Shown piece after piece: positions 1-52,215 of a stretch of DNA of 64,000 nucleotides. Numbering within the stretch: position 1 is the first letter of the stretch; each line of letters opens with the position of its first letter. This DNA comes from Bacteroidales bacterium. GTDB taxonomy: Bacteria > Bacteroidota > Bacteroidia > Bacteroidales > UBA12077. The position numbers and the translations under genes were made by a program. The DNA is taken from the NCBI GenBank assembly GCA_028282785.1, contig JANQHE010000029.1, positions 1-64,000 on the forward strand, written 5' to 3'. The notes under the pieces are model-generated. The model ran no database searches and was not told the DNA's origin. It saw only the letters and a program-made list of their open reading frames with translations.

Positions 1-165
1 AAAAAGTCTAGTTTTACATCTATATCTGAAAATCAGGATTTGCCCCTTCCCTAAAGGGAGTCCTGATTTTCAACATTTTCACCCCTGTCTGACGACAAGG
101 CAGGCTTTAGGGTTTGGGGCAGAAAGATGATGAAAATCACATATGCTTACTTTTTGGACACCCTC
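1..165. repeat. Inverted-repeat-bounded intergenic cassette, copy 1 (left end cut by the window)
   Basis: The right arm ACTTTTTGGACACCC lies at 149-163 and the window opens with AAAAAGT, the inner part of the matching left arm. The same arms bound two other intergenic stretches (15668-15736, 22146-22314). Inside is a perfect 12-bp inverted repeat (TGAAAATCAGGA at 27-38, its complement at 61-72) and a 21-bp palindromic element (84-104). The right arm is followed by TCTTTTTT, so the structure could also end transcription. Confidence 0.6.
84..104. repeat. 21-bp palindromic element, intergenic copy
   Basis: Arms CCTGTC and a near-complementary GGCAGG. Read on the minus strand it matches 19 of 21 bases of the element at 31256-31276 inside a histidine kinase gene. 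Same family as 25963-25983. Confidence 0.65.
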
Positions 166-22145: not shown

Positions 22146-22314
22146 GTCCAAAAAGTCTTAGTGTTCTTTGTGCCTACTTTGTGAAACCCTACCTGTCGGT
22201 AGACAGGTTTGTGGTATAATCATAAAAAGTTGTTACACAGAGAACCACAAAGGAGACACAGAGTTACTCAAAGTAAAAAATATGGACAAAATTCAACTAT
22301 TCTACTTTTTGGAC
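22146..22314. repeat. Inverted-repeat-bounded intergenic cassette, copy 3
   Basis: GTCCAAAAAGT (22146-22156) and ACTTTTTGGAC (22304-22314) are a perfect 11-bp inverted pair, the same arms as copies 1 and 2. The interior is non-coding and holds the palindrome CCTGTC-N4-GACAGG (22192-22207) and imperfect repeats of CACAGAGAACCACAAAGG type. It fills most of the gap between the M56 and DUF4252 genes. Confidence 0.65.
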
Positions 22315-22848: not shown

Positions 22849-22867
22849 ATAAAAAGATTGAGTATAC

Positions 22868-22895
22868 ATCCCTGCTAGTTTAGCAGGGATTTTTT
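22868..22895 (+). terminator. Rho-independent terminator after DUF4252 gene
   Basis: ATCCCTGCTA, loop GTTT, AGCAGGGAT plus a T-run. Confidence 0.9.
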
Positions 22896-22917
22896 AATTT
22901 TGGGAAAAATTGAATCA

Positions 22918-23208
22918 ATGAAAATACTTGCAATTGAAAAAGAAAATCCGGGCTTAACCCCTGAAGATTTTAAACCTTACCTGGACCATGAAGCTAAAAT
23001 GGTTTGGGAGCTTTATGAAAAAGGAATTATTCGTGAAATTTATTTTGGTGCAGAAGAACACAATGCACATATTGTTTTAGAATGTGAAAATCTTGAAGAT
23101 GCTCAAGATATTTTAAATGACCTGCCGTTAGTACGAAACAATCTGATTAAGTTTGACTTAACTACGCTTATTCCTTATAACGGATTTAGCAGATTATTCA
23201 GGAAATAA
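22918..23208 (+). CDS. YciI/muconolactone-isomerase-like small protein
   Basis: 96 residues from the ATG; a TTG six codons earlier lies within the terminator T-run and is unlikely. Ferredoxin-like dimeric alpha/beta-barrel pattern: MKILAIEKENPG, ... YLDHEAKMVWELYEKGIIREIYF, ... AHIVLECENLEDAQDILNDLPLV. Such proteins bind small organic molecules or act as stand-alone isomerase-like folds. No catalytic assignment is possible. Sits just after a terminator, so it has its own promoter. Confidence 0.7.
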   Translation: MKILAIEKENPGLTPEDFKPYLDHEAKMVWELYEKGIIREIYFGAEEHNAHIVLECENLEDAQDILNDLPLVRNNLIKFDLTTLIPYNGFSRLFRK

Positions 23209-23314
23209 AATATTTTTTTATTATGTTTATTTACAATATTTTACTTTTTCAAAAATAATTGACTTTACTTCCTTTTTTTTATAATTTGTAGTGCATTTGA
23301 ATCAAAATCCCACT

Positions 23315-25846
23315 ATGAATAATCTTTTTATTAAACTTTCGCAGTATAGGAAAGAACTTGAAAAATCAATTCAGGCAAAAGAGTATTCAAATATTTTAAA
23401 TAAAACGGATAATCTTCTTGACGAAATTTCGATGCATGAAAACAAAGAACCGGGCGATATTTTTAATATTAATAAAGAGTTTATTGATAGTGAAGAGAAA
23501 TTTCGTGCATTATCAGATTTATCATCTGCCGGAATTTGCATACTTACAATCGAGAATTATTTTTATGTAAATAAAGCATGGTGTGAGTTAACAGAATATT
23601 CAGAAGAAGAATCCCAAACGTTACGACCGTTAGATATTATTGATCCTCAAATGCATGATTTGGTGAAGAAAAGACATAAAGCAAGATTTAGAGGAGAAGA
23701 TGCTCCAACTCGATACAAAATGAAAATTATTACAAAGAGTGGTAAAGAAAAATGGGTTGATATTTCATTTACAATAATTGACTATGAAGGATACTTCGCT
23801 ACTTTAGCAATAATGCATGATATTACCGAAAGAAAGAAAGCATTGGAAAAACTAAAGAATAGCGAGGAAAAATTTAGAAAACTAACAGAACTATCGCCAA
23901 CAGCAATTTGTATTCAAACAACTGATAGCTTTTTATGGGTTAACCCTGCTTGGTCCGAACTTACAGGATATTCACAAAGAGAACTTTCAACTATGCGACC
24001 CCTTGATATTATACATCCGGATATGAGGGAAATATCAAGAAAAAAGCCTGATGCCAGACTAAACAAAGAAGATGTTATAACCAGATATAACTTAAAAGTT
24101 TTAACAAAAAATAATAAGGTTAAATGGGTAGATATTGCTGTATCTGTTATAGAATTCGAAGGAAAAACGGCATCACTGGCCGTTTGCTCGGAAATAACAA
24201 AACAAATTGAAGCACAGGATGCTTTAAAACAAAGTGAGCAAAAATATCGCGGTTTAATTGAAAATTTAAGACAGGAATACATTTTCTACAGACTAAATCC
24301 GAATGGAGATTTTGAATATGTAAGTCCATCTGTTACAAATATATTAGGTTTTGAGCAAGAAGATTTTTCTAAGAACTATAGCGAATACTTTACTACGAAT
24401 CCAATTAATTACACTGCACGAGAAAAAAGAGAACTTGGTTTGCAAGGAATTCAACAGCTTCCATATGAATTGGAAATTTTTGATATTCAAAAGAATAAAC
24501 ATATTTTAGAAATTTCTGAAGCACCAATTGTTGATTCATTAGGCAATATATTGTACCTGGAGGGTATTGCACATGATATTACCTCACGTAAAAAGGCGGA
24601 AGAAATTATTCAGGATCAATTGGAAGAAATAAAAATCAATAATGAGGAGATAAAGTCTATAAATGAGGAGTTACATACTGTTAATGACGATTTAGAAACT
24701 AGGTTTAAAGAAATTGATATATTAAATAAGGAATTATCATTTAGTAAAACAAAATATGAAACTTTAGTTAAGAATATTCCGGGCATAGTTTTCAGGCGCA
24801 AAACTGATCGGGAATGGACCATGGAATATGTCAGTAATGAGATAGAGGTTTTGACCGGTTATAAAGCATCGGATTTTATAGTAAACAATACCCGTTCCTT
24901 TACAAGTTTAATCCATAAAGATGATATAGAAAGAGTTTATAAAGTTATTACAGATAGTATTTGTAAAAAACAGTCATATTCTGTTGAGTATCGTTTAGTA
25001 AATTCCCAGGAGGAAATAATTTGGGTATATGAGCGTGGACAATTGTTTAAAAAAGGAAAAAAGAAACTTTTAAATGGGGTTATTTTAGATATCACGGACA
25101 AAAAGAAGGTAGAAGAAAAATTAATTACATCTGAAAAAGAACTAAGAAAGTTAAATGCACAAAAGGATAAATTCTTTTCATTACTGGCTCATGATTTGAG
25201 AAGCCCAATTGGAAACTTCCTACAAATATCAGAACTTTTAAAGCTTAATTATGAAGCATTAACAGCCAAGCAAGCAAATGATTTTTTCGATCATTTATAC
25301 GCTTTATCCGATAGAACTTTCAAATTACTGGAAAACTTGCTAATGTGGTCAAGGAGTCAGCTTGGCAGATTAGAAATCGAACCAGTAAGTTTTCATCTGA
25401 AGAAAGTTCTTGATGATGTAATATATCTTTTAGAAGAAAATCTAAAATCCAAAAAGGTTAAACTTGAAAATAATATTGCTGATGAATTAATTGTTACAGC
25501 AGATTTAAATGTAGTTCAAACATTATTTAGAAATCTTATCGGAAATGCTATAAAATTTTCCTTTGAAGAAGGTAAGATTACAGTTAATTGTAAAGAAGAC
25601 GAAAATGCTCAAAAAGAACAATTTATTATCTCAGTTGAAGATAATGGAGTTGGAATACCACCTGAAAGAGTTGATAAAATTTTTAATATTGATGAAGATT
25701 ACTCTACACTTGGCACTAAAAGAGAGAAGGGTACAGGATTAGGATTAATACTTTGTAAAGAGATTATTGAAAAAACAGGTGAAAGTATTTGGGTTAAAAG
25801 TAAAGAAGGAGAAGGAAGTTGTTTTTACTTTACACTTAAACGTTAG
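23315..25846 (+). CDS. Multi-PAS sensor histidine kinase (cytosolic)
   Basis: About 843 residues from the ATG (a GTG 24 bp earlier is an alternative). No membrane helix. Four PAS domains with PAC ends: two nearly identical ones in tandem (~60-170 and ~190-300, each with T..YS..E......LDII.P and KWVDI.....), a third (~315-430), a coiled coil (~435-480), and a fourth (~485-605). HisKA with LLAHDLRSPIGN and HATPase_c (N box FRNLIGNAIKFS, G1 EDNGVGI, G2 GTGLGL). No receiver or output gene next to it, so it is an orphan kinase. Its 3' end overlaps that of the convergent kinase by 11 bp. Confidence 0.93.
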   Translation: MNNLFIKLSQYRKELEKSIQAKEYSNILNKTDNLLDEISMHENKEPGDIFNINKEFIDSEEKFRALSDLSSAGICILTIENYFYVNKAWCELTEYSEEESQTLRPLDIIDPQMHDLVKKRHKARFRGEDAPTRYKMKIITKSGKEKWVDISFTIIDYEGYFATLAIMHDITERKKALEKLKNSEEKFRKLTELSPTAICIQTTDSFLWVNPAWSELTGYSQRELSTMRPLDIIHPDMREISRKKPDARLNKEDVITRYNLKVLTKNNKVKWVDIAVSVIEFEGKTASLAVCSEITKQIEAQDALKQSEQKYRGLIENLRQEYIFYRLNPNGDFEYVSPSVTNILGFEQEDFSKNYSEYFTTNPINYTAREKRELGLQGIQQLPYELEIFDIQKNKHILEISEAPIVDSLGNILYLEGIAHDITSRKKAEEIIQDQLEEIKINNEEIKSINEELHTVNDDLETRFKEIDILNKELSFSKTKYETLVKNIPGIVFRRKTDREWTMEYVSNEIEVLTGYKASDFIVNNTRSFTSLIHKDDIERVYKVITDSICKKQSYSVEYRLVNSQEEIIWVYERGQLFKKGKKKLLNGVILDITDKKKVEEKLITSEKELRKLNAQKDKFFSLLAHDLRSPIGNFLQISELLKLNYEALTAKQANDFFDHLYALSDRTFKLLENLLMWSRSQLGRLEIEPVSFHLKKVLDDVIYLLEENLKSKKVKLENNIADELIVTADLNVVQTLFRNLIGNAIKFSFEEGKITVNCKEDENAQKEQFIISVEDNGVGIPPERVDKIFNIDEDYSTLGTKREKGTGLGLILCKEIIEKTGESIWVKSKEGEGSCFYFTLKR

Positions 25847-27224
25847 TTTGATTGAAAATTAATTGGAATGTAGTTAGTTTATCAGGTTCCGATTTTACGA
25901 ATATATTTCCTCCATGTAAATACATAATTTGTTGCGAAAGGCTCAAGCCAATACCGGAACCTCCTGCCTTGCCGTCTGGCAGGTTTTCTTTTGTAGTAAA
26001 AAACGGAGTAAATATATTATCAATAATTTCCTTCTTAATTCCTTTCCCGTTATCATTTACTAAAATCTCAATTTTATTTAAATTGTTTATAAAAGAGTTA
26101 ATACTAATTTTTGGATTGGGATTTTCCTTTACACTTTCGATTGAGTTCTTAACAAGATTTATAAGTACTTGTTCTATTAGAGACTTATCGGCATTTAACC
26201 TTAAATGTTCCGGGCTTGAGATCAAATTGTAATCAATATTATATATCTCAAATTCCTTTTTAAATAATGTTTCAATGATATTGTAAAGCTCTGAGATCTT
26301 GATATTTTCCTTTTGAGGTTCAGGTAGTAAAGTCAAATCTCTGAATTTTTTCACAAATTTTAGCATACCTTCACTTCGTTGCTGAATAATATTTAACCCC
26401 TTAATTGTTTTATAAACAATTTCTTCTGTTATTTCACCAGGTGTTAAAGTAGAATCATCTTTTTTTAATAAACCATTTATAGATGTTGTTGCAGAACTTA
26501 TTGGTGATACGGAATTCATAATTTCATGCGTTAAAACACGAATGACTTTTTGCCACGATTCAACTTCTCTTTTGTTTAAATCGGATTGGATATCCTGAAA
26601 TGCTAATAATTTAATTCGTTTGTTACTAATCGTAAACTCCACTAATTTAGCAGATAGCTCTAAATCAAAATTATTATTTTTTAAATGTATTAAGTGTTGT
26701 TGGTTTGGAGTTAAGTTTTTAATTCTTTGGGCAAGCCCTGTGTGAATTCTATCTAATTCCGGGATCGATTTTAAATTACTTATTCTGAGAATATCCTTCC
26801 CTGCCGGATTAAAAAACTGAACTTTTAGATCTTCATTGAATGATAAAATACCAATTCCAACATTTTCAACTACTTGTTTCAAATACTCGTAATGTTCTAT
26901 TTTTTGAATATTTGCATTCTTAATAATATTGTTAACATTGTTTAGCTGTTCATAAAGAGATTTAAAAGAACTATTATTTTCATCCCTTTCAAAAACAATT
27001 GTGGAATCCTGATTAGTGACTGAAGAGAAAAAGTTTGCCAGGTTACGGTTTGTTTTATTTAAATAATAAACCAATAATATACTTTGACCAATTAGAAGAA
27101 TTATCAGGTTAATTTGGGTAACTATGAACTTTTCCGTAAAAAAGAAATAAGTAACCAAAAAAGTATTGGCAAGAATTAACAAAACTCTAATAATTATTTG
27201 AATATATAGTTTTTTAATTATCAT
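25836..27224 (-). CDS. NtrB-like membrane sensor histidine kinase, module 1
   Basis: 462 residues: two N-terminal membrane helices (about 8-30, 36-55) with almost no periplasmic loop, a PAS-like domain (~110-210), H-box LTHEIMNSVSPI (H233), then N box LINLVKNSIES, G1 VNDNGKGI and G2 GIGLSLS. Without a periplasmic sensor it probably reads a membrane or cytosolic signal. The ATP-lid carries an extra LPDGKAG encoded by a palindromic repeat (25963-25983) and absent from the module-3 paralogue. Expressed after its activator gene, 12 bp downstream of that stop codon. Confidence 0.93.
   Translation of the reverse strand: MIIKKLYIQIIIRVLLILANTFLVTYFFFTEKFIVTQINLIILLIGQSILLVYYLNKTNRNLANFFSSVTNQDSTIVFERDENNSSFKSLYEQLNNVNNIIKNANIQKIEHYEYLKQVVENVGIGILSFNEDLKVQFFNPAGKDILRISNLKSIPELDRIHTGLAQRIKNLTPNQQHLIHLKNNNFDLELSAKLVEFTISNKRIKLLAFQDIQSDLNKREVESWQKVIRVLTHEIMNSVSPISSATTSINGLLKKDDSTLTPGEITEEIVYKTIKGLNIIQQRSEGMLKFVKKFRDLTLLPEPQKENIKISELYNIIETLFKKEFEIYNIDYNLISSPEHLRLNADKSLIEQVLINLVKNSIESVKENPNPKISINSFINNLNKIEILVNDNGKGIKKEIIDNIFTPFFTTKENLPDGKAGGSGIGLSLSQQIMYLHGGNIFVKSEPDKLTTFQLIFNQTNV
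25963..25983. repeat. 21-bp palindromic element inserted in frame in kinase 1
   Basis: Arms CCTGCC / GGCAGG around TTGCCGTCT. On the coding strand it encodes LPDGKAG between TTKEN and GSGIGLS. Differs by one base from the insert in kinase 2. Confidence 0.8.
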
Positions 27225-27236
27225 GGTTACATTTTG

Positions 27237-28610
27237 TTAGATCCCAAATTTGTTCATTTTATTATAAATAGTTTGGCGGCTAATTGCTAGTTCTTTTGCA
27301 GCTTCTGATAAATTTCCTTTATGTTTATTTAAAGCATTAATTATGGCGTTTTTTTCAATCTCTTCAAGTGTTAATGCTCGGGAAGTTAATGAAGGAAAAT
27401 TATTTGTTCTCCTAAAATCAAAATCTGTAGCATCAATATATTCATTTTCAGAAAGAATAACTACTTTTTCAATGTTATGTTCCAGTTCTCGGATATTGCC
27501 GGGCCAGGTATGCTGTTTAAGTTTTTCTATTGCTTTAGGTGTAAACTTCAGATTGCTTTTTTGATAAGTATCGGCAAATTTCTGTAAAAAATACTCGGCA
27601 AATAATGAAATATCCTCAATTCGTGATCTTAAAGGTGGTAGTTCAATAACAATAGTATTAATTCTATAAAACAGATCCTCCCTAAATAAACCTTCGTTTA
27701 CCAATTGTTCAAGATTTTTATTTGTTGCACAGATAAGCCTAACATCAATTGGGATAGGTAGAATTGAACCAATTCTAATCACTTCCTTATTTTGAATTAC
27801 CGAGAGTAGTTTTGCTTGCAGTTGCAAAGGAATATTTCCGATTTCATCCATAAAGAGTGTGCCTCCTTGCGCTACTTCGAACCTTCCTATTTTTCTTTCT
27901 TTAGCATCGGTAAATGCGCCTTTTTCGTGCCCAAATAGTTCACTTTCAAATAAATTCTCATTAAGAGAACCAAGATCAACAGACACGAATGGTTTATTGT
28001 TTCTATTTGATCTTTTATATAACTCACGTGATATAACTTCTTTGCCCGTACCATTTTCTCCCAGAATAAGTACATTTGCGTCTGTTTTAGCAACTTTTTT
28101 AACCAGTTTATAAACATCAATAATAAGTTGTGAGTTTCCAATTAGTTCCGGAATTTTACTTTTATTTTCTTCGATAAGTATTTCATTCTGCCTTTTTAAA
28201 TTTTTGACTTCTTTTTTGGATTTTCTAAGTTTATATCCGGCTTTAAGCGTTGATAATAATTTTTGATTATCCCATGGTTTTAATACAAAATCAAACGCTC
28301 CTTCTTTCAAAGATCTTACAGCAATATTTACTTCTCCATATGCAGTAATAGGTATTATAACTATTTCCGGATCAAAATGCAGAATCTCTCTTATCCAGTA
28401 AATACCTTCATTTCCACTATTAATTCCGGCTGAGTAATTCATGTCCAAAAGAACAAGATCGATGTTTTTATTTTTAATGTATTGAGGTATTAGGTTTGGA
28501 TTTTTTATATAAAAAACTTCCTTAAAATCATCTTCGATAAAAAGGCTAAGTACATCTAATATATCTTGGTTATCGTCAACAATTAAGAGGTTTCCTTCAA
28601 CTTTTTTCAT
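27237..28610 (-). CDS. NtrC-like sigma-54-dependent response regulator, module 1
   Basis: 457 residues from the ATG; a TTG start 24 bp upstream is less likely. Receiver 1-125: VDDN acidic pair, phospho-acceptor D56 in LLDMNYSAGINSGNEG (an extended loop shared by all three activators here), Lys in KPW. AAA+ domain: Walker A GENGTGKE (~184-191), sigma-54 loop GAFTDA in place of GAFTGA, Walker B GTLFMDEIG, arginine fingers in the REDLFYRIN region. C-terminal Fis-type helix-turn-helix (LSEAAKELAISRQTIYNKM). Activates sigma-54 promoters; the divergent permease is the obvious target. Confidence 0.94.
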   Translation of the reverse strand: MKKVEGNLLIVDDNQDILDVLSLFIEDDFKEVFYIKNPNLIPQYIKNKNIDLVLLDMNYSAGINSGNEGIYWIREILHFDPEIVIIPITAYGEVNIAVRSLKEGAFDFVLKPWDNQKLLSTLKAGYKLRKSKKEVKNLKRQNEILIEENKSKIPELIGNSQLIIDVYKLVKKVAKTDANVLILGENGTGKEVISRELYKRSNRNNKPFVSVDLGSLNENLFESELFGHEKGAFTDAKERKIGRFEVAQGGTLFMDEIGNIPLQLQAKLLSVIQNKEVIRIGSILPIPIDVRLICATNKNLEQLVNEGLFREDLFYRINTIVIELPPLRSRIEDISLFAEYFLQKFADTYQKSNLKFTPKAIEKLKQHTWPGNIRELEHNIEKVVILSENEYIDATDFDFRRTNNFPSLTSRALTLEEIEKNAIINALNKHKGNLSEAAKELAISRQTIYNKMNKFGI

Positions 28611-28642
28611 ATTTTTAATGTAAAAAAGGTGCAAGTTATTAA

Positions 28643-28686
28643 ATTGTCAAATAATTTGGCAATGGACTGTCCAAAATATTGACAAT
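28643..28686. promoter_or_regulatory. Nested dyad, putative activator-binding site for module 1
   Basis: Outer arms ATTGTCAA / TTGACAAT and inner arms TTTGG / CCAAA share one centre (about 28665). It lies 55 bp from the activator ATG and 128 bp from the permease ATG, fitting an upstream activating site with possible autoregulation. Confidence 0.6.
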
Positions 28687-28746
28687 TCTTAGATGTAAAA
28701 TAAAAATTATATTAATAAGGTCAAGATTATCAGCATATTAAAATCT

Positions 28747-28763
28747 TGGCATAAAATATGGCA
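28747..28763 (+). promoter_or_regulatory. Sigma-54-like element before permease of module 1
   Basis: TGGCATAAAATATGGCA: the -24 TGGCA is clear, but GG to GC is 11 bp rather than the strict 10 unless GG replaces GC at -12. Located 30 bp before the permease ATG. Confidence 0.35.
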
Positions 28764-28792
28764 TAATTGAACAGAACAATAAATTTGCGATT

Positions 28793-31141
28793 ATGTTAAA
28801 GAATTATTTGAAAACGGCATTAAGAAGATTCTGGAGGCAAAGAGCTTTTACCATTATAAATATATTGGGTTTATCAACGGGGTTATCTATAGCGCTTGTT
28901 ATGTTAATTAATGTGAAATATCAGTTAAGCATTGATTCGTTTCATGAAAAGGCAGAAGATATCTATGCTGTCGGCATGGAATATATTCTTGATGGGAAAA
29001 ATGTAAGTTCAAATTCATGTGGAGGTGCATGGGGAGAGGCAATACAAGAAAATTACCCTGAGGTGATCATGAAATCTCGAATGAAAGCTGTTGGTGAGTT
29101 ATTACTAACAACTTTTAATGAATCCGGAGATATTGATAAGAAATATATAGAATCAAGAGGTGCTGGAGTTGATTCAACTTTTTTTCAGATGTTTACATTT
29201 CCACTACTAAAAGGAAATACCGAAAATGTATTAAAAAGTCCTCATTCCATGGTCCTATCAAAAGAATTTGCACAAAAATACTTTGCAAATGAAAATCCTA
29301 TTGGAAAAAGCATAACAATAAACAGGACATATAATCTTATAGTTACCGGAGTATTAGAAGAATTACCGCAAAATACACAGTTAGCTTTTGACTTTTATGT
29401 AAATATGGAGTTTTTAAGACAATTGGGATTTAGTATTGACAATATTGGTGGAAATACATATCAAACATTTCTTTTATTTGAAGAAAGATCAAGCCTTGAT
29501 AATATAAATTCAACTTTAAAGGATTTCCTGTATGCCAAGTTTGACCGTGATATGGATTATGACCCATACTTAATATCTGTCGGTTCCATGTATTTATATG
29601 GAGAAAACTTAGGCCATATTTTTATAAAAATATTTTCTGCTATAGCCATTTTCATTCTAATTATGGCTTGTATCAATTTTATGAATTTATCGACTGCAAC
29701 ATCTCTTCAAAGAGCAAAAGAAATTGCAGTAAGAAAAATTGTTGGTGCTCAAAGAAGGCAACTTATTAGACAATTATTAAGTGAGTCTATACTATTGGCA
29801 TTAATATCTTTAAATATAGCCATTGTACTTTCCGAATTTATATTGGAGCTTTTTGACAAGATGTACGGAGAGACTGTGCCCTTAAACCTCGGAGATTACG
29901 GATTATGGGCACAGTTTATTTTTCTTACGCTAATTACAGGGTTTTTATCCGGAAGTTACCCGGCAATTTTTCTTTCTTCATTTAAACCTGTAAAGGTTTT
30001 ATCAATGCACAGTTTAAAAAGTGCCGGTGGAAAGTTTAGAAAAATACTTGTTGTGTTTCAATTTACATTATCCATTTTGTTTTTAACACTTACTATTAAC
30101 TCATATAGACAGAACAAGGCAATACTTAAAAACAAAATTGGCATAGATACTGATAATATTGTATATATACCTGTTAGAGGTGAAATAACGCAAAAATATG
30201 ATTTAATAAAAGAAGAATTATTGCAAAACTCTAATATTATTAACGTAACATCTTCGAGCCAGGAACCAACCTGGGTAACAATAGGAGAATTTGAATGGGG
30301 TATAACACCGGAAAAAAATAAAGATTTATCAAGAGTGCTATGGGTTAATTATGACTTTTTAGATGTATTCAAAATAAAACTTAAAGAAGGAAGGTTTTAT
30401 TCTAAAGATTTCCCTGGCGATATGGAAAACAGTATAGTTATAAATGAAGAAATAGTAAAAGCACATGATATAAAAGACCCGATCGGAAAACAGTTTTACC
30501 TTTATGAGGATGCTTATACCATTATCGGAGTGGTTGAGTATTTTAATTTTTTTCCTGTTGAGATTGGTGGAAGAAATTTAATAATTAAACCTTCATCAAC
30601 TGAAAATGGTCATGTTTATATAAAATACACAGATGAAACATATCCTTATATAGCTGAATATATTGAAAGTGTTTTTGAAAAATATAACCCAAACTATCCA
30701 TATGAATATTTGTTTTATTCGGATTTTAAATCGCCTGCAGAAGAAGGTATTGATAATTTAAGTAAACAATTAGTATTTTTTACTTTTTTTGGTGTATTTA
30801 TCGCTGTGTTGGGATTATTGGGCCTTTCAGCTTATATGGTCGAACAAAAAACAAAGGAAATAGGTATTCGAAAAGCTATGGGGGCGAGTGTACAAAAAAT
30901 ATTATCAATTATAACATGGCAGTTTCTAAAATTAATTTTAATTGCTAATATCATTGCCTTACCAATTGGATTTGCTATTCATAACTATGTTAAACAGTTT
31001 TTAACTGTTAATACTACAGGCGATTCCTTCGTATTTGTGTTTGTATTTATATTTATCATCATCTTAGCATTTCTGATTATTTATTTTGTAACAATAAGGG
31101 CAGCAAAGGCTAATCCTGCCCAATCGTTAAGGTACGAGTAA
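28793..31141 (+). CDS. MacB/FtsX-type ABC transporter permease, module 1
   Basis: 782 residues, same eight-helix duplicated MacB/FtsX layout as the gene at the window start: helix ~20-42, extracytoplasmic domain, FtsX core after FSAIAIFILIMACINFMNLSTATS, helix ~420-440, second extracytoplasmic domain, final core with EQKTKEIGIRKAMGAS and C-terminal NPAQSLRYE. No ATPase gene beside it. Transcribed divergently from the module-1 activator, from which it is separated by a nested dyad and a -24-like box, suggesting signal-dependent induction. It meets the module-2 kinase gene end to end (2 bp gap). Confidence 0.92.
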   Translation: MLKNYLKTALRRFWRQRAFTIINILGLSTGLSIALVMLINVKYQLSIDSFHEKAEDIYAVGMEYILDGKNVSSNSCGGAWGEAIQENYPEVIMKSRMKAVGELLLTTFNESGDIDKKYIESRGAGVDSTFFQMFTFPLLKGNTENVLKSPHSMVLSKEFAQKYFANENPIGKSITINRTYNLIVTGVLEELPQNTQLAFDFYVNMEFLRQLGFSIDNIGGNTYQTFLLFEERSSLDNINSTLKDFLYAKFDRDMDYDPYLISVGSMYLYGENLGHIFIKIFSAIAIFILIMACINFMNLSTATSLQRAKEIAVRKIVGAQRRQLIRQLLSESILLALISLNIAIVLSEFILELFDKMYGETVPLNLGDYGLWAQFIFLTLITGFLSGSYPAIFLSSFKPVKVLSMHSLKSAGGKFRKILVVFQFTLSILFLTLTINSYRQNKAILKNKIGIDTDNIVYIPVRGEITQKYDLIKEELLQNSNIINVTSSSQEPTWVTIGEFEWGITPEKNKDLSRVLWVNYDFLDVFKIKLKEGRFYSKDFPGDMENSIVINEEIVKAHDIKDPIGKQFYLYEDAYTIIGVVEYFNFFPVEIGGRNLIIKPSSTENGHVYIKYTDETYPYIAEYIESVFEKYNPNYPYEYLFYSDFKSPAEEGIDNLSKQLVFFTFFGVFIAVLGLLGLSAYMVEQKTKEIGIRKAMGASVQKILSIITWQFLKLILIANIIALPIGFAIHNYVKQFLTVNTTGDSFVFVFVFIFIIILAFLIIYFVTIRAAKANPAQSLRYE

Positions 31142-31143
31142 TA

Positions 31144-32517
31144 TTAAAAGTGTAATGTAAAAACAGTTTTTTTATTTGGATCTGATTTAACAGAAATATT
31201 ACCTCCATGTAAATGTAATATTTGTCGGGAAAGGCTCAATCCAATACCAGAACCCCCTGCCTTGCCGTCAGGCAGGTTTTCTTTTGTAGTGAAAAAAGGT
31301 ATAAAGATATTCTCAATTTCATCTTTTGTAATTCCCTTTCCATTATCAATTACTTTTATTAAAGGTTTATCATTGAATAATTCGCCTTTTATTTCCAGAT
31401 GAGGTTCTTTTGTATTTAGTAATGCTTCAGATGAGTTTTTAATTAAATTTATTAATACTTGCTCGATAAGTTTTTCATCCGCATATAACGTTAGATTATC
31501 CGGTAAACATGAAAATTGAAAAACAATATTCTTTTTATTTAAATCTTCCTTTAATAAAGTATTAAGATGTTCAAGCAATTTTGAGAGTTCAAAAACAGAA
31601 AAATTCGGTTTAGGAATTTGGGTTAAATTTTTATATGTTTCAACAAAGTTGGATAATCCGATGCTTCGTTTTCGTATTGTTTTAAGCCCAAGCAAGGAAT
31701 TCTCAATGGTCGAATTATCAAGTTCATTAATCCTTTTTATTTTCTCATTTTCTTCAAACATTCCTATTAAAGAACCTGAAAGAAGCTTTATGGGACTAAC
31801 AGAATTCATAATTTCATGTGTTAATACGCGTATTAATTTTTGCCAGGCATCAACTTCACTTTGATCAATTTCACTTTTAATATTCTGTAACGATAGAAGT
31901 TTTATCTCAAGCGTTTTAATTTTAAAATTTGCCGCCTTTACCGATAATTGAATAATTTCATTATCAATATTTAATTTAATTAATTTATTGTTGCCTGGTT
32001 TTATAGAAGTTAGTTTTGCTGCCAAACCTGGCTGGATAAGATCAATTTCCGATATATAGTTTAAATTATGCTTCTTAAATAGTTTTAAGGCTGCATCATT
32101 ACATATTTCAATTTTTCCTGATTCATCAAGGGCCAATATTCCAATTCCAATATGCTTTATGGTACTATGAAAATATTGATGTTCTGTTTCCTTTTCCGAT
32201 CTAACCTCAGAAATATCATTAATTATTTGATTTAATTCCTGGTATAGTCTCTTAAATGCTTTGTCTATTTTCTTTTTTTTATGGAAACTGATAGAAACAT
32301 CATCATATTTTATGGCTGTAATAAATTTAATAATATCCCTGTTTACTCTTTGTAAATACCAAATAAGATAAATTATTTCCAAAACCCAAAGTATAACAAG
32401 CGACGAACTGGTAATGAGCATGTATTCCTGATCAAGTGTCCAGAAAAATGCCAGTGTTGTTGCGGCTATTAAAATAACCTGTAGTATGATATATATCCTG
32501 AATCTGCTAAATGCCAT
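31144..32517 (-). CDS. NtrB-like membrane sensor histidine kinase, module 2
   Basis: 457 residues, paralogous over its whole length to the module-1 kinase: two closely spaced membrane helices (~8-28, 35-55), a PAS-like region (~115-210), H-box LTHEIMNSVSPI (H234), N box LINLIKNSSEA, G1 IDNGKGI, G2 GIGLSLS. The ATP-lid insert LPDGKAG is again encoded by the 21-bp palindrome. Overlaps the 3' end of its activator gene by 11 bp, so translation is coupled and the two are made together. Confidence 0.93.
   Translation of the reverse strand: MAFSRFRIYIILQVILIAATTLAFFWTLDQEYMLITSSSLVILWVLEIIYLIWYLQRVNRDIIKFITAIKYDDVSISFHKKKKIDKAFKRLYQELNQIINDISEVRSEKETEHQYFHSTIKHIGIGILALDESGKIEICNDAALKLFKKHNLNYISEIDLIQPGLAAKLTSIKPGNNKLIKLNIDNEIIQLSVKAANFKIKTLEIKLLSLQNIKSEIDQSEVDAWQKLIRVLTHEIMNSVSPIKLLSGSLIGMFEENEKIKRINELDNSTIENSLLGLKTIRKRSIGLSNFVETYKNLTQIPKPNFSVFELSKLLEHLNTLLKEDLNKKNIVFQFSCLPDNLTLYADEKLIEQVLINLIKNSSEALLNTKEPHLEIKGELFNDKPLIKVIDNGKGITKDEIENIFIPFFTTKENLPDGKAGGSGIGLSLSRQILHLHGGNISVKSDPNKKTVFTLHF
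31256..31276. repeat. 21-bp palindromic element inserted in frame in kinase 2
   Basis: Arms CCTGCCT / AGGCAGG (7 bp, perfect) with a 7-nt loop. Encodes LPDGKAG in the ATP-lid at the same position as in kinase 1. Confidence 0.8.
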
Positions 32518-33880
32518 ATTTTTCCATTTTCTTATATAACGTAGACCTGTTTATCCCAAGTTCTTTTGCTGCAGAACTTATATTTCCTTTATATTTTCGT
32601 ATAGCTTTTTCAATAAGTACTTTCTCATTCTCATCAAGATTTAACGATTTTGCAACAGAACTTTTTGGTTTAATTTCACCTTCCGGCCAACAATGTTGAT
32701 TTAAAATGATATTACCTTCACAAAGAATTACTGCCTTTTCAATGGTATGTTGTAATTCTCTTACATTTCCGGGCCAGAAATGCTCTTTTAATCTTGGTAA
32801 TAGACTCGAATGAAATTTTATAGTTGATTTATTATATTTTTCACCGTAAGTTTTTAAAAAGAAATTGGAAAGCAAAATAATATCTTCATTTCTTTCTCTT
32901 AAAGGAGGAAGATTAATGTTAATCGTATTTATTCTGTATAAAAGATCCTCTCTGAACAGGTTTTTCTCGACCATTTCTTCGGGACTTTTATTCGTTGCAC
33001 AAATTAGTCTGATATCAACCGGTATTGGTTTATTTGATCCTATTCTGTATATTTTTTTATTTTGAATTGCTGTTAATAATTTTGCTTGCAAGGGCATTGG
33101 TAGATTTCCAATTTCATCCAGAAACAATGTGCCACCTGATGCAATTTCAAATCTTCCGGCCCTGTCTTCTTTTGCATCTGTGAATGAGCCTTTTATATGG
33201 CCAAACAGCTCACTTTCAAATAGATTTTCTTGTAATGCTCCCATATCGACACTTACAAACACTTCATTTGCTCTATTTGATTTTCGATGTATTTCTCTTG
33301 CAATAACTTCTTTTCCGGTTCCATTTTCTCCCAGGATCAACATATTTGCATCTGTTTTAGCAACCTTTTCAACAATTTCAAAAATATTTTGCATGACAAC
33401 AGACTTACCAATTACTTGATTAAAGTTCTGATCTATTTTATCGCTTAAATGCTTTTGTTTTTGTTGCAGATTTTGAATTTTTAACTTTGATAATCTCAAA
33501 TTATATGCGGCAAGTATGGTTGAGAGTATCTTTTTTTCATCCCATGATTTTTGAATAAAATCTGTTGCTCCTTCCTTCATTGCATTAACTGCCAATTCCA
33601 CATCGCCATAAGCGGTTATCAAAACTATGGAAGCGCTTTGATCTTTTTCCAGAATTTGTTTCATCCAATAAATACCTTCGTTTCCGGAATTAACACCAGC
33701 GGTGAAATTCATATCTAAAAGAACAATATCATAGGATTCTTTTCTTATATATTCTGGTATTAAATTTGGATTTTTAATAGTATCGATCTTTTCAAAATGC
33801 TTTGATAAGAAAAATCGAAGGGCAATTAATAACTCTTCGTTATCGTCAACAATAAGTATTTTTCCTTTTTGGTTAGGCAT
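32507..33880 (-). CDS. NtrC-like sigma-54-dependent response regulator, module 2
   Basis: 457 residues. Receiver with VDDN, phospho-acceptor D56 in LLDMNFTAGVNSGNEG and the shared IKNPN motif; AAA+ with GENGTGKE, sigma-54 loop GSFTDA (two changes from GAFTGA), Walker B GTLFLDEIG; C-terminal Fis-type helix-turn-helix (ISSAAKELGINRSTLYKKM). First gene of the activator-kinase operon. The divergent permease trio 34482-41777 is the likely target, because two copies of a TGTTG-N7-CAACA dyad precede its two transcription units. Confidence 0.94.
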   Translation of the reverse strand: MPNQKGKILIVDDNEELLIALRFFLSKHFEKIDTIKNPNLIPEYIRKESYDIVLLDMNFTAGVNSGNEGIYWMKQILEKDQSASIVLITAYGDVELAVNAMKEGATDFIQKSWDEKKILSTILAAYNLRLSKLKIQNLQQKQKHLSDKIDQNFNQVIGKSVVMQNIFEIVEKVAKTDANMLILGENGTGKEVIAREIHRKSNRANEVFVSVDMGALQENLFESELFGHIKGSFTDAKEDRAGRFEIASGGTLFLDEIGNLPMPLQAKLLTAIQNKKIYRIGSNKPIPVDIRLICATNKSPEEMVEKNLFREDLLYRINTININLPPLRERNEDIILLSNFFLKTYGEKYNKSTIKFHSSLLPRLKEHFWPGNVRELQHTIEKAVILCEGNIILNQHCWPEGEIKPKSSVAKSLNLDENEKVLIEKAIRKYKGNISSAAKELGINRSTLYKKMEKYGI

Positions 33881-33919
33881 TTTTACTATGTTTAAATGTA
33901 TAAATGATAAAATGTTACT

Positions 33920-34276
33920 TTAGATAAGATGTGTTTTTGGTTTGGTCATTATTTTGGATATTTTATTAGCTTCTTTCAAAAGCCTTAATAATTCTGGTTT
34001 ATCTTTTGACAGATTTGTATCTTGGATTACTTCCAGCCGGTATTCACACTCATCGGATTCTTCTATGGCAATACAAATCTTACTAAAAAATCTGCTTTAG
34101 ATCTTCCCCTGCATGCCGCTCGGTAATTTGCTTCAGGATGTTACCGGTTTTATTAATTGGTATAATAACAGATGAGGCTTTAGTTTCTTTAAGTGTATTG
34201 CAAATATAATAACATCAACTGCAAACTTTTTAGTTCTTTTTTTTAAGTTTTCAATAAAAATTTCTTTTTCAGTCAT
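33920..34276 (-). pseudogene. Decayed four-helix-bundle protein (S23 / TIGR02436 family)
   Basis: Starts as MTEKEIFIENLKKRTKKFAV, then matches the family in three different frames: LYQLIK, ANYRAACRGRSKADF, and FSKICIAIEESDECEY through LLKEANKISKIM to a stop. At least three frameshifts and an in-frame stop separate the pieces. Intact members (about 120 residues) are encoded near rRNA or scattered in genomes, and related bundles serve as accessory factors of retroelements. It fills much of the 600-bp gap between the module-2 activator and the permeases and is not functional as read. Confidence 0.8.
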
Positions 34277-34314
34277 GATTTTTATGTTTTCATTTATTTT
34301 AGCATTAAAGCATT

Positions 34315-34376
34315 ACAACATTTAAAATTAGTACAAAATGTTGTTATTTTCGACATGAGTGTTGGAATTTGCAACA
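34315..34376. promoter_or_regulatory. Two dyads, putative activator sites for module 2
   Basis: ACAACATTT-N12-AAATGTTGT (34315-34344, perfect 9-bp arms) and TGTTG-N7-CAACA (34360-34376). The second is repeated at 39236-39252 upstream of the third permease. Its centre is about 75 bp before the -12 region of the promoter at 34432-34447. Confidence 0.65.
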
Positions 34377-34431
34377 GTTAATGATTTAAGTTTTGTGTGT
34401 AAGTATCAACTAATCAGCTAATAATAATTTT

Positions 34432-34447
34432 TGGTACGTCTTTGGCT
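34432..34447 (+). promoter_or_regulatory. Sigma-54 promoter-like element, permease trio
   Basis: TGGTACGTCTTTGGCT fits TGGCACG-N4-TTGC with two mismatches and exactly 10 bp between GG and GC. The ATG lies 35 bp downstream. Confidence 0.55.
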
Positions 34448-34481
34448 TGTTATGAGCATTATAATAATATATTAATTAAAA

Positions 34482-36872
34482 ATGATTTCAAATTACTTTA
34501 AAACAGCAATAAGAAATTTTTATCGAAATAAAGCAATAACACTAATTAAAACATTAGGACTTGCATTAGGCTTGGCGGTAATCTTTTTCATTTTAATTTA
34601 TATTACTACCGAAACCAGCTATAACGATTATAATAAAAAGAAAGAAAGAATTTTTCGCATAAACCAAATTGACCTTATACATGGATGGAAAAGCATAAAT
34701 ACACCATTTCCAATGAGAGATGCACTAATAGAAGATTTTCCTATTATAGAAGATGCCACAAGATTATATTCCTTAAATAACGTTAATGTTGAAATTGGTA
34801 ATACAGTATTAAAAGAAAATACGGTAATATGTGTCGATCAAAGTTTTTTTAAAATATTTACCTTAAATAAAATTGCCGGGGACTTTTCCGGTTTTGATTT
34901 TGATATTCATAATGTTGTTATTACCGAATCAACAGCTTTAAAATATTTTGGCAAAACAGATGTATTAAACAAATCATTTAAGATGATAAATGGTAGTGAA
35001 GAATATTTGTTAAATATTACTGCCATAATCGAGGATATTCCGGTGACCTCCACAATAAAAGCGGATTTTATTACTACCACGGAAATTGGACTTAAACAGG
35101 TTAATAAAAACATGATTTGGAGTGATGGAGAGGAGAGAGGTACTGAATTTTACAGGAATAAATGGTCCCAACATTTTGTGGAAACTTACGTGCTATTTGA
35201 AGAAAAGAAGAATGCACTGGATTTCGATTTGAGATTAATGCAGCTTGAGGCGAAGCATGTAAGCGATACAACCCAGAGAGACTATTTTGTACAAAACCTG
35301 GAAGATATTTACCTGCATTCTGAAGATATGTTTGGAAGTGACCGGTTAGGAGATCTAAATTCTATTTATATATTTTCTGCAATTGCTTTTTTGGTTCTTT
35401 TAGTTGCATGTATAAACTATATTATTTTATCAATTTCCCAAATCATAACACGATCAAAAGAAATTGGAATAAGAAAAATAGCCGGAGCATTACGATCCGA
35501 TTTACTAAAACAAATATCTGTCGAGTCGATTATTTTAATAGCTGTTACACTTCCGTTAGCTTTTATTTTAATTGAGCAATTCAGGCCATCGCTTGAACAG
35601 ATATTGAAAAAACAGATTATCTTAACCTATAACCTGAAATTTATACTGGGGTTTATATTCATAATCTGTTTTGTAATTTTTATTCCGGGTATTAACATTG
35701 TTTATTTTTTAAATAGAATATCACCGGTTTCTATATTAAAGAGAGAAAATAAAAACTCCTCACGGAAATTTACTTTCAGGAAAATGCTAATAGTAATGCA
35801 GTTTGTGATTTTTATAGTATTAGTGGTGCTGGCCATTGGAATTAAGATGCAGATAAATTTCTCAACCAGAAGTGAACTGGGTTTTAATCCTGATAATAAA
35901 GTTGTTATTAGTGTTAGTAAGATTGTTCAGAACGGAAAATATAATACGTTGAAAACAGAATTGATGAAAGACCCGAATGTTAAAAATATAAGTGGAGCTA
36001 TGTGGTTACCACCCTCAAACAGTAGAATGAGTTTTAGTCAAACAGATTCAGCATACGGTGATGAACCAATAAAATTAGAAGCTTTGTTTGTTGACCAGGA
36101 TTTTATTGAAAATTTCGAAATAGAATTATTAGAAGGGAAATCATTTAAAGACTATGAAACCAGTGCCGATTGGAAAATTTTAGCAAATGAAACAACAGCC
36201 AGCATGTTAGGAAAAGATAAAATAATTGGAAGAAACATTTGGAATGGCGAGGTAATAGGAGTTGTTAAGGATTTTAAATTTCATTCAGTTCATGAGAAAG
36301 TTCAACCAATGATTTTAGTCGTATCAGAAAGTATGATCCGGGAAATGGTAATTAATTATCGAGTTCCTGTTTCCAAAAATATTCTTGACGGGTTAAATAA
36401 TGAATTACAGGATTTTCAACCAGATATAAACTTTAATCCCCAACTGCTCAATGATAAATTTGATTCTTTATATGAAAAAGAAAATAGATTAGGTACCTTG
36501 GTTGGAATATTTTCCTTTATAGCCATTTTTATTGCAGCAATTGGATTATTAGGAATAACCATGTTTACAACTAAAAAACAAACTAAAAATATTGCAATCC
36601 GAAAAGTAAATGGAGCTTCTATTTTAACTATCTGGAGATTATTAATTAGTGATTATATCCGGTTAATAGTTATTGCGCTGATTATAGCCATTCCGATATC
36701 ATATTATTTATTGGATAAATGGTTGCAAAGCTTTGCTTATCAAGCTGATATCGACTGGTGGATATTTATTATTGCAGGTGGTTTAGCTTTAATTATCTCA
36801 TTATTAACTGTAAGTTGGTATATATTAAATGCTGCACGAAAAAATCCAGTAGATAGTTTACGTTACGAATAA
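34482..36872 (+). CDS. MacB/FtsX-type ABC transporter permease, module 2, first of three
   Basis: 796 residues with the duplicated MacB/FtsX layout: first helix ~20-42, FtsX core from SIYIFSAIAFLVLLVACINYIIL, middle helix ~435-455, final core around KKQTKNIAIRKVNGAS, C-terminal NPVDSLRYE. It is the most divergent of the six: the first extracytoplasmic domain has extra loops and the core motif is TKNIAIRKVNG instead of TKEIGIRKALG. The next permease starts 10 bp downstream, so both share a transcript. Confidence 0.92.
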   Translation: MISNYFKTAIRNFYRNKAITLIKTLGLALGLAVIFFILIYITTETSYNDYNKKKERIFRINQIDLIHGWKSINTPFPMRDALIEDFPIIEDATRLYSLNNVNVEIGNTVLKENTVICVDQSFFKIFTLNKIAGDFSGFDFDIHNVVITESTALKYFGKTDVLNKSFKMINGSEEYLLNITAIIEDIPVTSTIKADFITTTEIGLKQVNKNMIWSDGEERGTEFYRNKWSQHFVETYVLFEEKKNALDFDLRLMQLEAKHVSDTTQRDYFVQNLEDIYLHSEDMFGSDRLGDLNSIYIFSAIAFLVLLVACINYIILSISQIITRSKEIGIRKIAGALRSDLLKQISVESIILIAVTLPLAFILIEQFRPSLEQILKKQIILTYNLKFILGFIFIICFVIFIPGINIVYFLNRISPVSILKRENKNSSRKFTFRKMLIVMQFVIFIVLVVLAIGIKMQINFSTRSELGFNPDNKVVISVSKIVQNGKYNTLKTELMKDPNVKNISGAMWLPPSNSRMSFSQTDSAYGDEPIKLEALFVDQDFIENFEIELLEGKSFKDYETSADWKILANETTASMLGKDKIIGRNIWNGEVIGVVKDFKFHSVHEKVQPMILVVSESMIREMVINYRVPVSKNILDGLNNELQDFQPDINFNPQLLNDKFDSLYEKENRLGTLVGIFSFIAIFIAAIGLLGITMFTTKKQTKNIAIRKVNGASILTIWRLLISDYIRLIVIALIIAIPISYYLLDKWLQSFAYQADIDWWIFIIAGGLALIISLLTVSWYILNAARKNPVDSLRYE

Positions 36873-49508: not shown

Positions 49509-50879
49509 ATGAATTTGAAAGTTGGAAAAATATTGGCAGTAGATGATAATGATTATGTTTTAAAAACTATTAATCAACTCTTAAAATATGAGTGTGAGTT
49601 GATAAAAACAATTAAAAATCCTAATCAACTAAAGTCTGTTTTATCGAGCGAAAGTTTCGATGTTATACTACTTGATATGAATTTTTCAGCTGGAGTTAAT
49701 ACAGGGAATGAAGGCTTATATTGGTTAAGCGAAATTCTTGAAGCTGATAAAAATACAGCTGTAATAATGATTACCGCATATGGAGATATTGATCTAGCTG
49801 TTAAAGCAATAAAAAAGGGGGCAGCAGATTTTATTACTAAACCCTGGGATGCTGAGAAATTTGTGACAACTATATTGAATACTGTTAAGTTGAGTAGATC
49901 GAGAAAGAAAAATGAAATTCTTGAAAGTAGGCAAGAACAATTGAATAAGGATATCAATAAACCTTTCGAAAATATAATAGGAACATCTGATAAAATGAAG
50001 GAAGTATTTTCCCTGATTGAAAAAGTTTCCAATACTGATGCTAATATTTTGATTTTAGGAGAGAATGGGACAGGTAAGGAACTAATTGCAAGGGAAATTC
50101 ACAAAAGATCCGAACGTTCTAAAGAAATATTTATGCCTGTTGATATTGCGTCCTTGACTGAGTCCATCATAGAAAGTGAATTATTCGGCCATGTGAAAGG
50201 TGCTTTTACTGATGCCGGGGAAGATCGTTTAGGACGCTTGGAATCTGCCTCCGGAGGAACTCTGTTTTTAGATGAAATTGGAAATCTTTCTTTGGAAATA
50301 CAAGCAAAGCTATTAACAGTGCTGCAAAACAGGAGTATCGTTAAAGTTGGAGGAGCTAAAGAAATTCCAATTGATATAAGATTAATTTGTGCCACAAATA
50401 ACAACCTGGAAGAAATGGTTGAAAAAGGCCTTTTTAGAGAAGATTTATTTTACAGGATAAATACTATTCAAATTCAATCTCCGGCTTTAAGAGAAAGAAA
50501 AAGTGATATTATTGAACTGGCAACATTTTATCTGGAAAAATTTACTGAAAAGTATAATAAAAATAAAATGCATATTACCAAAGAGGCTCAGAAAGAACTA
50601 ATGAATTACACCTGGAAGGGTAATGTGCGTGAGTTGATGCATACGATCGAAAAGGCCGTCATCTTATCCGATAAAAAAGAATTAAGTATAGAAGATTTTT
50701 ATTTAAGATTACATGGATATTTATCAGATAATCAGTCAAATAGATTGGAAGATGTAGAGAAGCAAACAATTCAAAAGGTTCTTGAGAAACATAAAGGTAA
50801 TTTAACTAAAGCAGCAAAGGAACTTGATATTTCCAGAACAACTCTTTATTTAAAATTGAAGAAATATGAAATTCAATAG
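49509..50879 (+). CDS. NtrC-like sigma-54-dependent response regulator, module 3
   Basis: 456 residues. Receiver with VDDN, phospho-acceptor D56 in LLDMNFSAGVNTGNEG, shared IKNPN motif, KPW lysine; AAA+ with GENGTGKE, sigma-54 loop GAFTDA, Walker B GTLFLDEIG; Fis-type helix-turn-helix at the C terminus (LTKAAKELDISRTTLYLKL). First gene of the operon with its kinase, overlapping it by 14 bp. Probably induces the divergent permease through sigma-54. Confidence 0.94.
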   Translation: MNLKVGKILAVDDNDYVLKTINQLLKYECELIKTIKNPNQLKSVLSSESFDVILLDMNFSAGVNTGNEGLYWLSEILEADKNTAVIMITAYGDIDLAVKAIKKGAADFITKPWDAEKFVTTILNTVKLSRSRKKNEILESRQEQLNKDINKPFENIIGTSDKMKEVFSLIEKVSNTDANILILGENGTGKELIAREIHKRSERSKEIFMPVDIASLTESIIESELFGHVKGAFTDAGEDRLGRLESASGGTLFLDEIGNLSLEIQAKLLTVLQNRSIVKVGGAKEIPIDIRLICATNNNLEEMVEKGLFREDLFYRINTIQIQSPALRERKSDIIELATFYLEKFTEKYNKNKMHITKEAQKELMNYTWKGNVRELMHTIEKAVILSDKKELSIEDFYLRLHGYLSDNQSNRLEDVEKQTIQKVLEKHKGNLTKAAKELDISRTTLYLKLKKYEIQ

Positions 50880-52215
50880 GTTTTATATCAACATTTTGGT
50901 AAGGATATTTTTAGTAGTAATTACTTGTATGTTGTTTGTTTTCTTTATTGAACGTGATGACAATATTTTAACCACGTTATTTATTGCTTTTCTGGTAATC
51001 TTACAAACGGTTTTACTAATTAAATATGTGAATACTACGAATAAAGAATTAGCTGAATTTTTAATTCACCTGCATCAGGAAGATACATCGGTTGTATTTA
51101 GTAAAGAAAATATTGAAAAAACTTTTAAAGGATTAAGAACAAGTTTTGATAAAATAAATGCAAAAATTAAAAAGATAAAAACCGAGAAAGAACAACAAGA
51201 ATATTACTTTAAATATCTAATTGAAAATATAGAAACGGGACTAATTGGAATTAATGAATATAATGAAATAGAGTTTGTAAACAATCAGGCTAAAGTTTTT
51301 TTTAAGAAAAGAAATCGGAAATTGATAAATATCGACCGCCTGGATGAAGATTTTAAGGCAATAGTAAGAAAACTAAGGCCTTCAGAATCGAGCGTATTAA
51401 AAAAGGTAATAGATAGTAAATTATATCATTTAGCATTTAACTGCTCAGAGTTTAAGATTGGAGAAAAAAAAATAAAATTATTTACTATACAGGATGTAAG
51501 AAACGAAATTGAAAGTAGTGAAATAGAATCGTGGCAAAAGCTAACCAGCGTATTAACCCATGAAATGATGAATTCAATTACTCCCATAACATCTTTGGCT
51601 CATGCTATAAAGAAATACGTACACAATGACAATGGACTAAAGAATTACAAAGAAATAAATAATGAATTAATTATTGATATCGCTGAAAATGCAGATATCA
51701 TAGAGAATAGGGGGAAGAGATTGTTAGAATTTATTAATAATTACAGATCAGTTTCGAAATTACCTAAACCGAAATTTGAATCCATTAGCATAAAATCTTT
51801 CTTACAAAATATTATTCAGTTATTTGAGAAAGATCTGAAAAAAGGTAAAATTGATGCAGTTATTAATAACGTTAGCGATGATCTGGAACTAATAGCTGAT
51901 AAAGGAATGATTGAACAGGTGCTAATTAACCTGATAAAAAATTCGATAGAAGCGTTCACAAATATTACAGAACCTAAAATAGAGTTATGTTCATTTATTG
52001 ATAAAAATGGTAAAATTCAAATTCAGGTTATTGATAATGGTAATGGTATAAAAGAAGATTCACTGCATGATGTTTTTATACCGTTTTATACAACAAAGGA
52101 AAATGGCACCGGTATAGGATTGTCAATATCCAGGCAAATAATGAAATTGCATAAAGGGTCCATAAATATAAATTCAGAGCCGGATGTTAAAACCAAGGTA
52201 ATACTTATATTCTGA
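50866..52215 (+). CDS. NtrB-like membrane sensor histidine kinase, module 3
   Basis: 449 residues: two N-terminal membrane helices (~8-28, 33-53), PAS-like region (~110-210), H-box LTHEMMNSITPI (H232), N box LINLIKNSIEA, G1 IDNGNGI, G2 GTGIGLSIS. The ATP-lid reads TTKENGTGIGLS without the LPDGKAG insert of the other two kinases and so shows the ancestral form. Translation is coupled to the activator gene by the overlap. Confidence 0.93.
   Translation: MKFNRFYINILVRIFLVVITCMLFVFFIERDDNILTTLFIAFLVILQTVLLIKYVNTTNKELAEFLIHLHQEDTSVVFSKENIEKTFKGLRTSFDKINAKIKKIKTEKEQQEYYFKYLIENIETGLIGINEYNEIEFVNNQAKVFFKKRNRKLINIDRLDEDFKAIVRKLRPSESSVLKKVIDSKLYHLAFNCSEFKIGEKKIKLFTIQDVRNEIESSEIESWQKLTSVLTHEMMNSITPITSLAHAIKKYVHNDNGLKNYKEINNELIIDIAENADIIENRGKRLLEFINNYRSVSKLPKPKFESISIKSFLQNIIQLFEKDLKKGKIDAVINNVSDDLELIADKGMIEQVLINLIKNSIEAFTNITEPKIELCSFIDKNGKIQIQVIDNGNGIKEDSLHDVFIPFYTTKENGTGIGLSISRQIMKLHKGSININSEPDVKTKVILIF

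Follow-up and report, generated by a model that had tools for sequence, protein, structure and literature searches.

Very small mobile repeated elements, that is, tiny dispersed repeats thought to be mobile, have reportedly been described in cyanobacteria by Elhai and co-workers. Passages on the Rickettsia palindromic elements (RPEs) describe palindromes of 105-146 bp with 12-bp terminal inverted repeats, which are dispersed between genes and, in frame, within genes for conserved proteins (PMC2229807, PMC10969869). REPs tagged by GTAG or CGTC are presented, in passages of another study, as small many-copy hairpins of which some are intragenic, many in genes for DNA synthesis or repair, and which in two Xanthomonas species occupy nearly the same place in recB (Di Nocera 2013, PMC3733652). 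For the Y1 transposases of Bacteroidetes, a further excerpt states that TnpAREP 2.4 genes often contain inserted REPs and that TnpAREP 2.6 genes have atypical flanking structures with copies elsewhere (PMC6006769). Since RPEs and intragenic REPs are described in such excerpts (PMC3733652, PMC10969869, PMC2229807, PMC3116915, PMC6006769), the kind of element reported here is already known. The titles, abstract openings and passages of the open-access literature that we consulted yielded no description of the 21-nt palindrome itself.

We encountered this palindrome in two histidine kinases of a Bacteroidales bacterium, where it encodes the heptapeptide LPDGKAG. It is very likely, in our judgement, that these codons are a short, non-autonomous mobile palindrome of 21 nt that inserts without duplication and in a frame-keeping manner, and whose permissive sites have apparently been hit repeatedly. 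The direct basis of this reading is a repeat family, empty sites in close relatives, three orthologue groups of kinases, clean junctions and self-nesting.

The mode of insertion is like that of RPEs and intragenic REPs, but the element is shorter, untagged and has no evident link to a RAYT. As with RPEs, copies are dispersed in frame in conserved genes and between genes; they differ in measuring 21 nt (42 nt when nested), in belonging to another phylum and in recurring at identical positions. The sequence-only reading had likened the insert to the Rickettsia elements, which is apt for an in-frame palindrome in genes; the element is, however, far shorter and not of the Rickettsia family. With REPs it shares the small hairpin (20-40 bp class), the many copies and the location of some of them in genes. 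Unlike REPs, it has neither a GTAG/CGTC flank tag nor an evident flanking RAYT, its length preserves the frame, one coding frame is preferred and copies nest near the centres of others. The hairpins adjoining RAYT genes here are mostly not this palindrome, which would set it apart from TnpAREP 2.4 and 2.6, and it is distinguished from MITEs by the lack of a target-site duplication at the three coding sites in the kinase lid, MutS2 and leucyl-tRNA synthetase (LeuRS).

Palindromic inserts in two kinases of the window

The window is the whole stretch of DNA analysed, 64,000 nucleotides of contig JANQHE010000029.1. It belongs to a genome of 5.5 Mb in 81 contigs, hereafter G000. The features that concern us are as follows.

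84..104, strand not assigned: intergenic copy of the palindrome within a longer intergenic repeat
22187..22207: degenerate intergenic relative with 5 mismatches to the family consensus, of uncertain membership
25836..27224, minus strand: K1, a histidine kinase with a HATPase_c domain, host of an insert
25963..25983, minus strand: palindrome of 21 nt in the ATP lid of K1, encoding LPDGKAG (coding strand CCTGCCAGACGGCAAGGCAGG)
31144..32517, minus strand: K2, a histidine kinase with a HATPase_c domain, host of an insert
31256..31276, minus strand: palindrome of 21 nt in the ATP lid of K2, encoding LPDGKAG (coding strand CCTGCCTGACGGCAAGGCAGG)
~50866..52206, plus strand: kinase 3, with a lid lacking the insert, which groups with an insert-bearing kinase of G006, the genome of another species in the genus

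The ATP lids of K1 and K2 read TTKEN-LPDGKAG-GSGIGL and that of kinase 3 reads TTKEN-GTGIGL, just as the sequence-only reading had described them. Its further claim that the inserts resemble each other more than the DNA around them was borne out, with 20 of 21 positions identical between the inserts compared with 46/60 and 50/60 in the 60-nt flanks. The intergenic copy at 84-104 is a one-mismatch relative of the palindrome; set against the K2 insert, it has 2 mismatches in 21 nt, which agrees with the 19/21 given before. Searching the window for CCTGCC-N9-GGCAGG with up to 2 mismatches returned 3 matches, compared with a mean of 0.25 in shuffled sequence. No Rfam family matched positions 20,000-40,000 at the gathering score.

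A structure prediction of K1, made from two sequences, reached a mean pLDDT of 67.7, with the lid-holding residues 173-194 below 50. As this is a low-confidence prediction, we gave it no weight, and the lid claim therefore rests on alignment. When the kinase was aligned with the solved sensor kinase 3a0t, a seven-residue gap fell at the position of the insert.

Several features of the surroundings may be recorded here. Positions 25836-33880 hold two like pairs of kinase and response regulator with a permease-like gene between them, and K1 and K2 have 36 and 57 matches in G000, respectively. The window opens, at positions 1-140, within the longer intergenic repeat in which the 84-104 copy lies. 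This repeat recurs elsewhere in the genome, where several other contigs have almost the same sequence at one end or close to it. The repeat is therefore probably the cause of assembly breaks.

Copy number, host genes and reading frames of the repeat family

Insertion of the palindrome goes beyond the two kinases and extends to numerous genes, and to numerous genomes across the phylum. The sequence-only reading had proposed counting the repeat across the genome and in relatives. In G000, with 3 mismatches allowed, the pattern CCTGCCTNNCNGNCAGGCAGG matched 59 times per strand (the same pattern written backwards: 0 and 1), corresponding to at least 57 distinct places, and the exact form CCTGCC-N9-GGCAGG occurred at 12 places (control 0). 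At up to 1 mismatch, a match was present in 17 of the 20 genomes that represent the genus and in 19 of all 39 genomes searched; none was found in G004, G007 and G014, G034 and G332 have many copies, and one genome from another family of the same order had 78 forward and 74 reverse matches. A close version was found in 33/392 genomes of a phylum sample, a patchy distribution. We also considered a phage as vector and rejected it, as one exact form of the 21-mer appeared in only 7 stretches of viral contigs.

The copies fetched from G000 lie between genes, inside longer intergenic repeats, and in frame within unrelated genes for conserved proteins. Judging from their sequences, we take the G000 hosts to be the ribosomal proteins L17 and S2 (in their tails), GrpE, a UvrD-type helicase, a dihydrolipoamide acyltransferase (in its linker), an M3 peptidase, QueG, MutS2, RsfS, an ABC ATPase, an SPFH protein and another histidine kinase (L008). 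Copies elsewhere in the phylum are often within long frames, and their hosts presumably include LeuRS, a HemW-like protein, the C-terminal domains of secreted proteins and, at L171, a HATPase of another family. At seven places in genome G332 (L265, L266, L270-L274), the 21-mer sits in the middle of yet another intergenic repeat (near CCAGATATTTCACT...TCGTTCAATATGACA).

Five of the six frames are open when the consensus is read directly. We then counted directional copies that lie in one clearly longest frame of at least 180 codons, a count biased towards intact genes because a frame is required; of the directional copies, 13/33 in G000 and 28/71 in the other genomes qualified. Of these 41 coding copies, 25 use one and the same frame (LPxGKAG or LSADKAG), where about 8 would be expected by simple arithmetic if the five open frames were used equally.

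These counts bear on the idea that the ribosome skips the hairpin, as in bypassing elements, so that the protein lacks the peptide. The two kinase inserts do fold as RNA hairpins (-9.3 and -11.8 kcal/mol). Skipping would not need a preferred frame, however, and the insert is frame-keeping and open in the frames used; we regard this idea as extremely unlikely.

Filled and empty sites in orthologous genes

For the kinases, the tree took in only some of the matches, namely 52 loci plus the window kinase, and 6 of these loci were dropped for lack of the lid pattern. Exactly two residues separate TTK from GSGIGL in 44 of 47 kinases, and the remaining three, K1, K2 and the G006 kinase, carry ENLPDGKAG. 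The three insert-bearing lids fall into three orthologue groups whose other members have no insert (supports 1.0, 1.0 and 0.98). K1 groups with kinases of G007 and G018 (support 1.0; 0.036 for the internal order), K2 with seven insert-free kinases (1.0), and the G006 kinase with those of G001 and G019 (0.98), next to which stands the insert-free kinase 3 (1.0). As each group is otherwise without the insert, it was either gained three times or lost many times; apparently, judging from these sequences, there were three lid insertions at one position. The junction is AAAGAAAA^AGG in the relatives of K2 and in the G001 kinase related to that of G006, and filled genes read AAAGAAAA, 21 nt, RGG. The relatives of K1 have AAAGAAAATGG (G018) and AAGGTAAAAGG (G007). 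A scan of genome contigs for the lid insert, which may omit G000, gave 15 stretches, of which one is a lid (MENK01000010.1) and 14 are non-lid by translation.

The sequence-only reading took the insert for a repeat at the level of nucleotides, not a trait of shared protein ancestry, and named LPDGKAG in diverse orthologues with different codons as the sign of an old protein feature. Among the fetched kinases this sign was absent: the orthologues lack the segment, and the only other kinase with it, that of G006, has the same 21 nt as K2. Empty sites, which the same reading had suggested looking for, were found for the lid as well as for MutS2, LeuRS and UvrD.

In MutS2, for which the region was visible in 19/30 scanned loci, one position is filled in G000 and G005 and empty in 17 of the 19 rows. 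The G005 gene is 95-96% identical in DNA to the insert-free genes of G002, G012 and G015 and 79% identical to that of G000. The bases adjoining its insert follow those of G012, G015 and G002 and not those of G000.

In LeuRS (region visible in 18/23 loci, with G000 and G008 among those not shown), an insert stands directly before KMSKS in G001, G002, G009 and G010, and 14 of the 18 rows are empty. The filled genes are dispersed over the gene tree, from which G000 was left out and in which G002 has a long branch owing to an incomplete frame. Next to G001 and G002 stand G003 and G012, both without insert. Over 300 nt from KMSKS downstream, the empty G012 gene is 98% identical to that of G002. The four inserts are identical to each other at 19-21 of 21 positions, and their 60-nt flanks at 43-54 of 60. 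UvrD (region visible in 13/18 loci) has a 42-nt form in G000 that is absent from the other 12 rows; this region is variable. At the lid, MutS2 and LeuRS, filled and empty sites differ by a clean 21 nt, and no duplication of target bases was seen.

Each of these comparisons has to be weighed against other ways of arriving at the same pattern. Gene conversion between neighbouring paralogues might have spread a single insertion between K1 and K2, which lie 3.9 kb apart, have inserts alike but for one base and agree completely over the 14 bases that precede the insert upstream. Against this, their flank identities fall within the range seen between other compared kinases, the third insert-bearing kinase belongs to another genome and another orthologue group, and in both LeuRS and MutS2 a single site is filled repeatedly across species, in a comparison without paralogues. 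We therefore hold conversion to be quite improbable. Of the alternative left by the sequence-only reading, insertion or conversion, it is insertion that these data favour; conversion between K1 and K2 is unneeded, nor do the flank identities point clearly to it.

Recurrent filling of one position could instead stem from interspecies recombination or from precise losses. If homologous recombination between species had exchanged filled sites, the recurrence would be due to transfer and not to repeated insertion, and the patchy presence in LeuRS and MutS2 would fit such a history. The flanks of filled LeuRS genes, however, differ at 6-17 of 60 positions per side, and in G005 the bases adjoining the MutS2 insert follow the insert-free genes of G012, G015 and G002 rather than the filled gene of G000. 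Very short tracts may have been exchanged; as an account of the whole pattern, we consider recombination unlikely. The insert could also be an ancient part of these proteins that was inherited and then repeatedly lost. This view could draw on the LeuRS site being common to several species, but it is hardly credible given that the insert DNA is nearly identical despite diverged flanks and that it turns up as well outside genes, in genes with no relation to one another and in other frames. We infer insertion, not repeated precise loss or exchange, and the places in the lid, LeuRS and MutS2 have apparently each received several independent insertions, as far as the gene comparisons tell.

Target sites and the search for a mover

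Copies of the palindrome also sit within one another. When the flanks of a copy were joined and compared with a loose pattern (up to 2 mismatches; outer copy cut after base 8, 9, 10, 12 or 13), a second family-like 21-mer, interrupted near its centre, emerged for 18/117 copies, as against 107/11,700 random positions. Seven of the 18 outer copies had no mismatch, two of these at one locus. The 42-nt form PARPSADKAGPAGE is itself a nested pair of palindromes. Hairpin tips as a general target were rejected, the excess over control positions being only modest: a junction stem score of at least 5 was found for 22.3% of 103 copies and 10.8% of 5,150 control positions. Over the 103 copies there is a weak target preference for a pyrimidine, then T, on one side. 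The motif RA^NGG, in coding orientation, is common to the filled sites of LeuRS, the lid, L008 and L171, and does not fit those of MutS2 or UvrD.

Filling of the same site would reflect either few permissive sites combined with a high rate of insertion, or a recognised target, or exchange of segments. A homing-like micro-element, in which a trans-acting machine recognises the hairpin together with a short target (RA^NGG or the centre of a copy) and the same positions of orthologous essential genes are refilled in different species, strikes us as doubtful. If it were true, frame-safe insertions of seven residues would be a recurrent source of variation in protein loops.

A more specific proposal is that the palindrome is a REP moved by a RAYT (a Y1 HUH transposase) of the Bacteroidetes subclasses. 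Its short hairpin and the absence of a target duplication would suit this proposal, and matches to PF01797, the Y1 transposase family to which our survey was confined, are present in G000 (6, one of them under the cut-off) and in 17/19 other genomes tested. We scanned the surroundings of 6 loci in G000 and 60 in relatives for up to 1.5 kb per side, some of them cut by contig ends. The palindrome flanked PF01797 genes at 0 of the 6 loci in G000. Among all 66, only in G018 did it adjoin the gene on both sides: here, at a RAYT-type gene with an internal stop (L130), it lies within the loops of GTAGCT palindromes. Copies also lie within two other RAYT-type genes, and two RAYTs of G332 have a copy nearby, one with two mismatches about 240 nt downstream (L229) and an exact one about 0.9 kb upstream (L235). 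Further copies occur near L215 (five mismatches, about 320 nt away) and L120 (about 0.7 kb away). Being single copies and not flanking pairs, those at L229, L215, L235 and L120 led us to reject a RAYT as the evident mover.

Several points speak against the REP proposal more generally. The base composition of 8 flanking positions per side over 103 copies contains no GTAG/CGTC tag, and G013 and G142 carry copies but have no match to PF01797. Orientation showed no bias with local GC skew (9 and 11 versus 5 and 5, Fisher p = 1.0, from 30/38 copies used); a lagging-strand mechanism, which might give a skew bias, was set aside as none was found. On this evidence we lean against a RAYT-moved REP while keeping it as a tentative possibility. 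The hairpins adjoining Y1 transposase genes are mostly sequences other than the palindrome.

Some individual loci may be described in addition. Other hairpins lie close to the Y1 genes L029, L030, L031, L032 and L034 of G000, either to one side or to both. In the relatives L033 and L129 of L130, a plain palindrome lies downstream, and in L130 itself it is the loops of the GTAGCT palindromes that carry the CCTGCC palindrome. Our reading of the L130 arrangement, from its sequence, is that of a probable nested insertion and not of a source. One copy (L018; contig C77 of G000, 1766-1786) is found in a broken gene that was taken for a RAYT by motif alone, and another (L123; contig C8 of G006) is in frame inside a RAYT.

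Returning to the mobile palindrome that we favour, we propose that it would insert as exactly 21 nt without target-site duplication. An insertion would add seven residues and keep the frame, because 21 nt are seven codons and five of the six frames are open. Surviving insertions would be those that fell outside genes or into permissive loops and linkers, such as the ATP lid of kinases, the loop before KMSKS in LeuRS and a loop of MutS2. The inserted peptide is predicted to be, most likely, neutral or nearly so. Mobilisation would occur in trans, through a putative enzyme acting on the hairpin form.

In-frame mobile palindromes in Rickettsia and REPs within genes of other bacteria were already known; the present case is a 21-nt version in Bacteroidota, with empty sites in close relatives and reuse of identical positions in a tRNA synthetase, in sensor kinases and in MutS2. 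For annotation, the finding is a warning that the heptapeptides LPDGKAG, LPAGKAG and LSADKAG are repeat DNA and not protein signatures. The palindrome offers a tractable system for asking by what means such elements move and how frequently working proteins gain peptide loops from mobile DNA.
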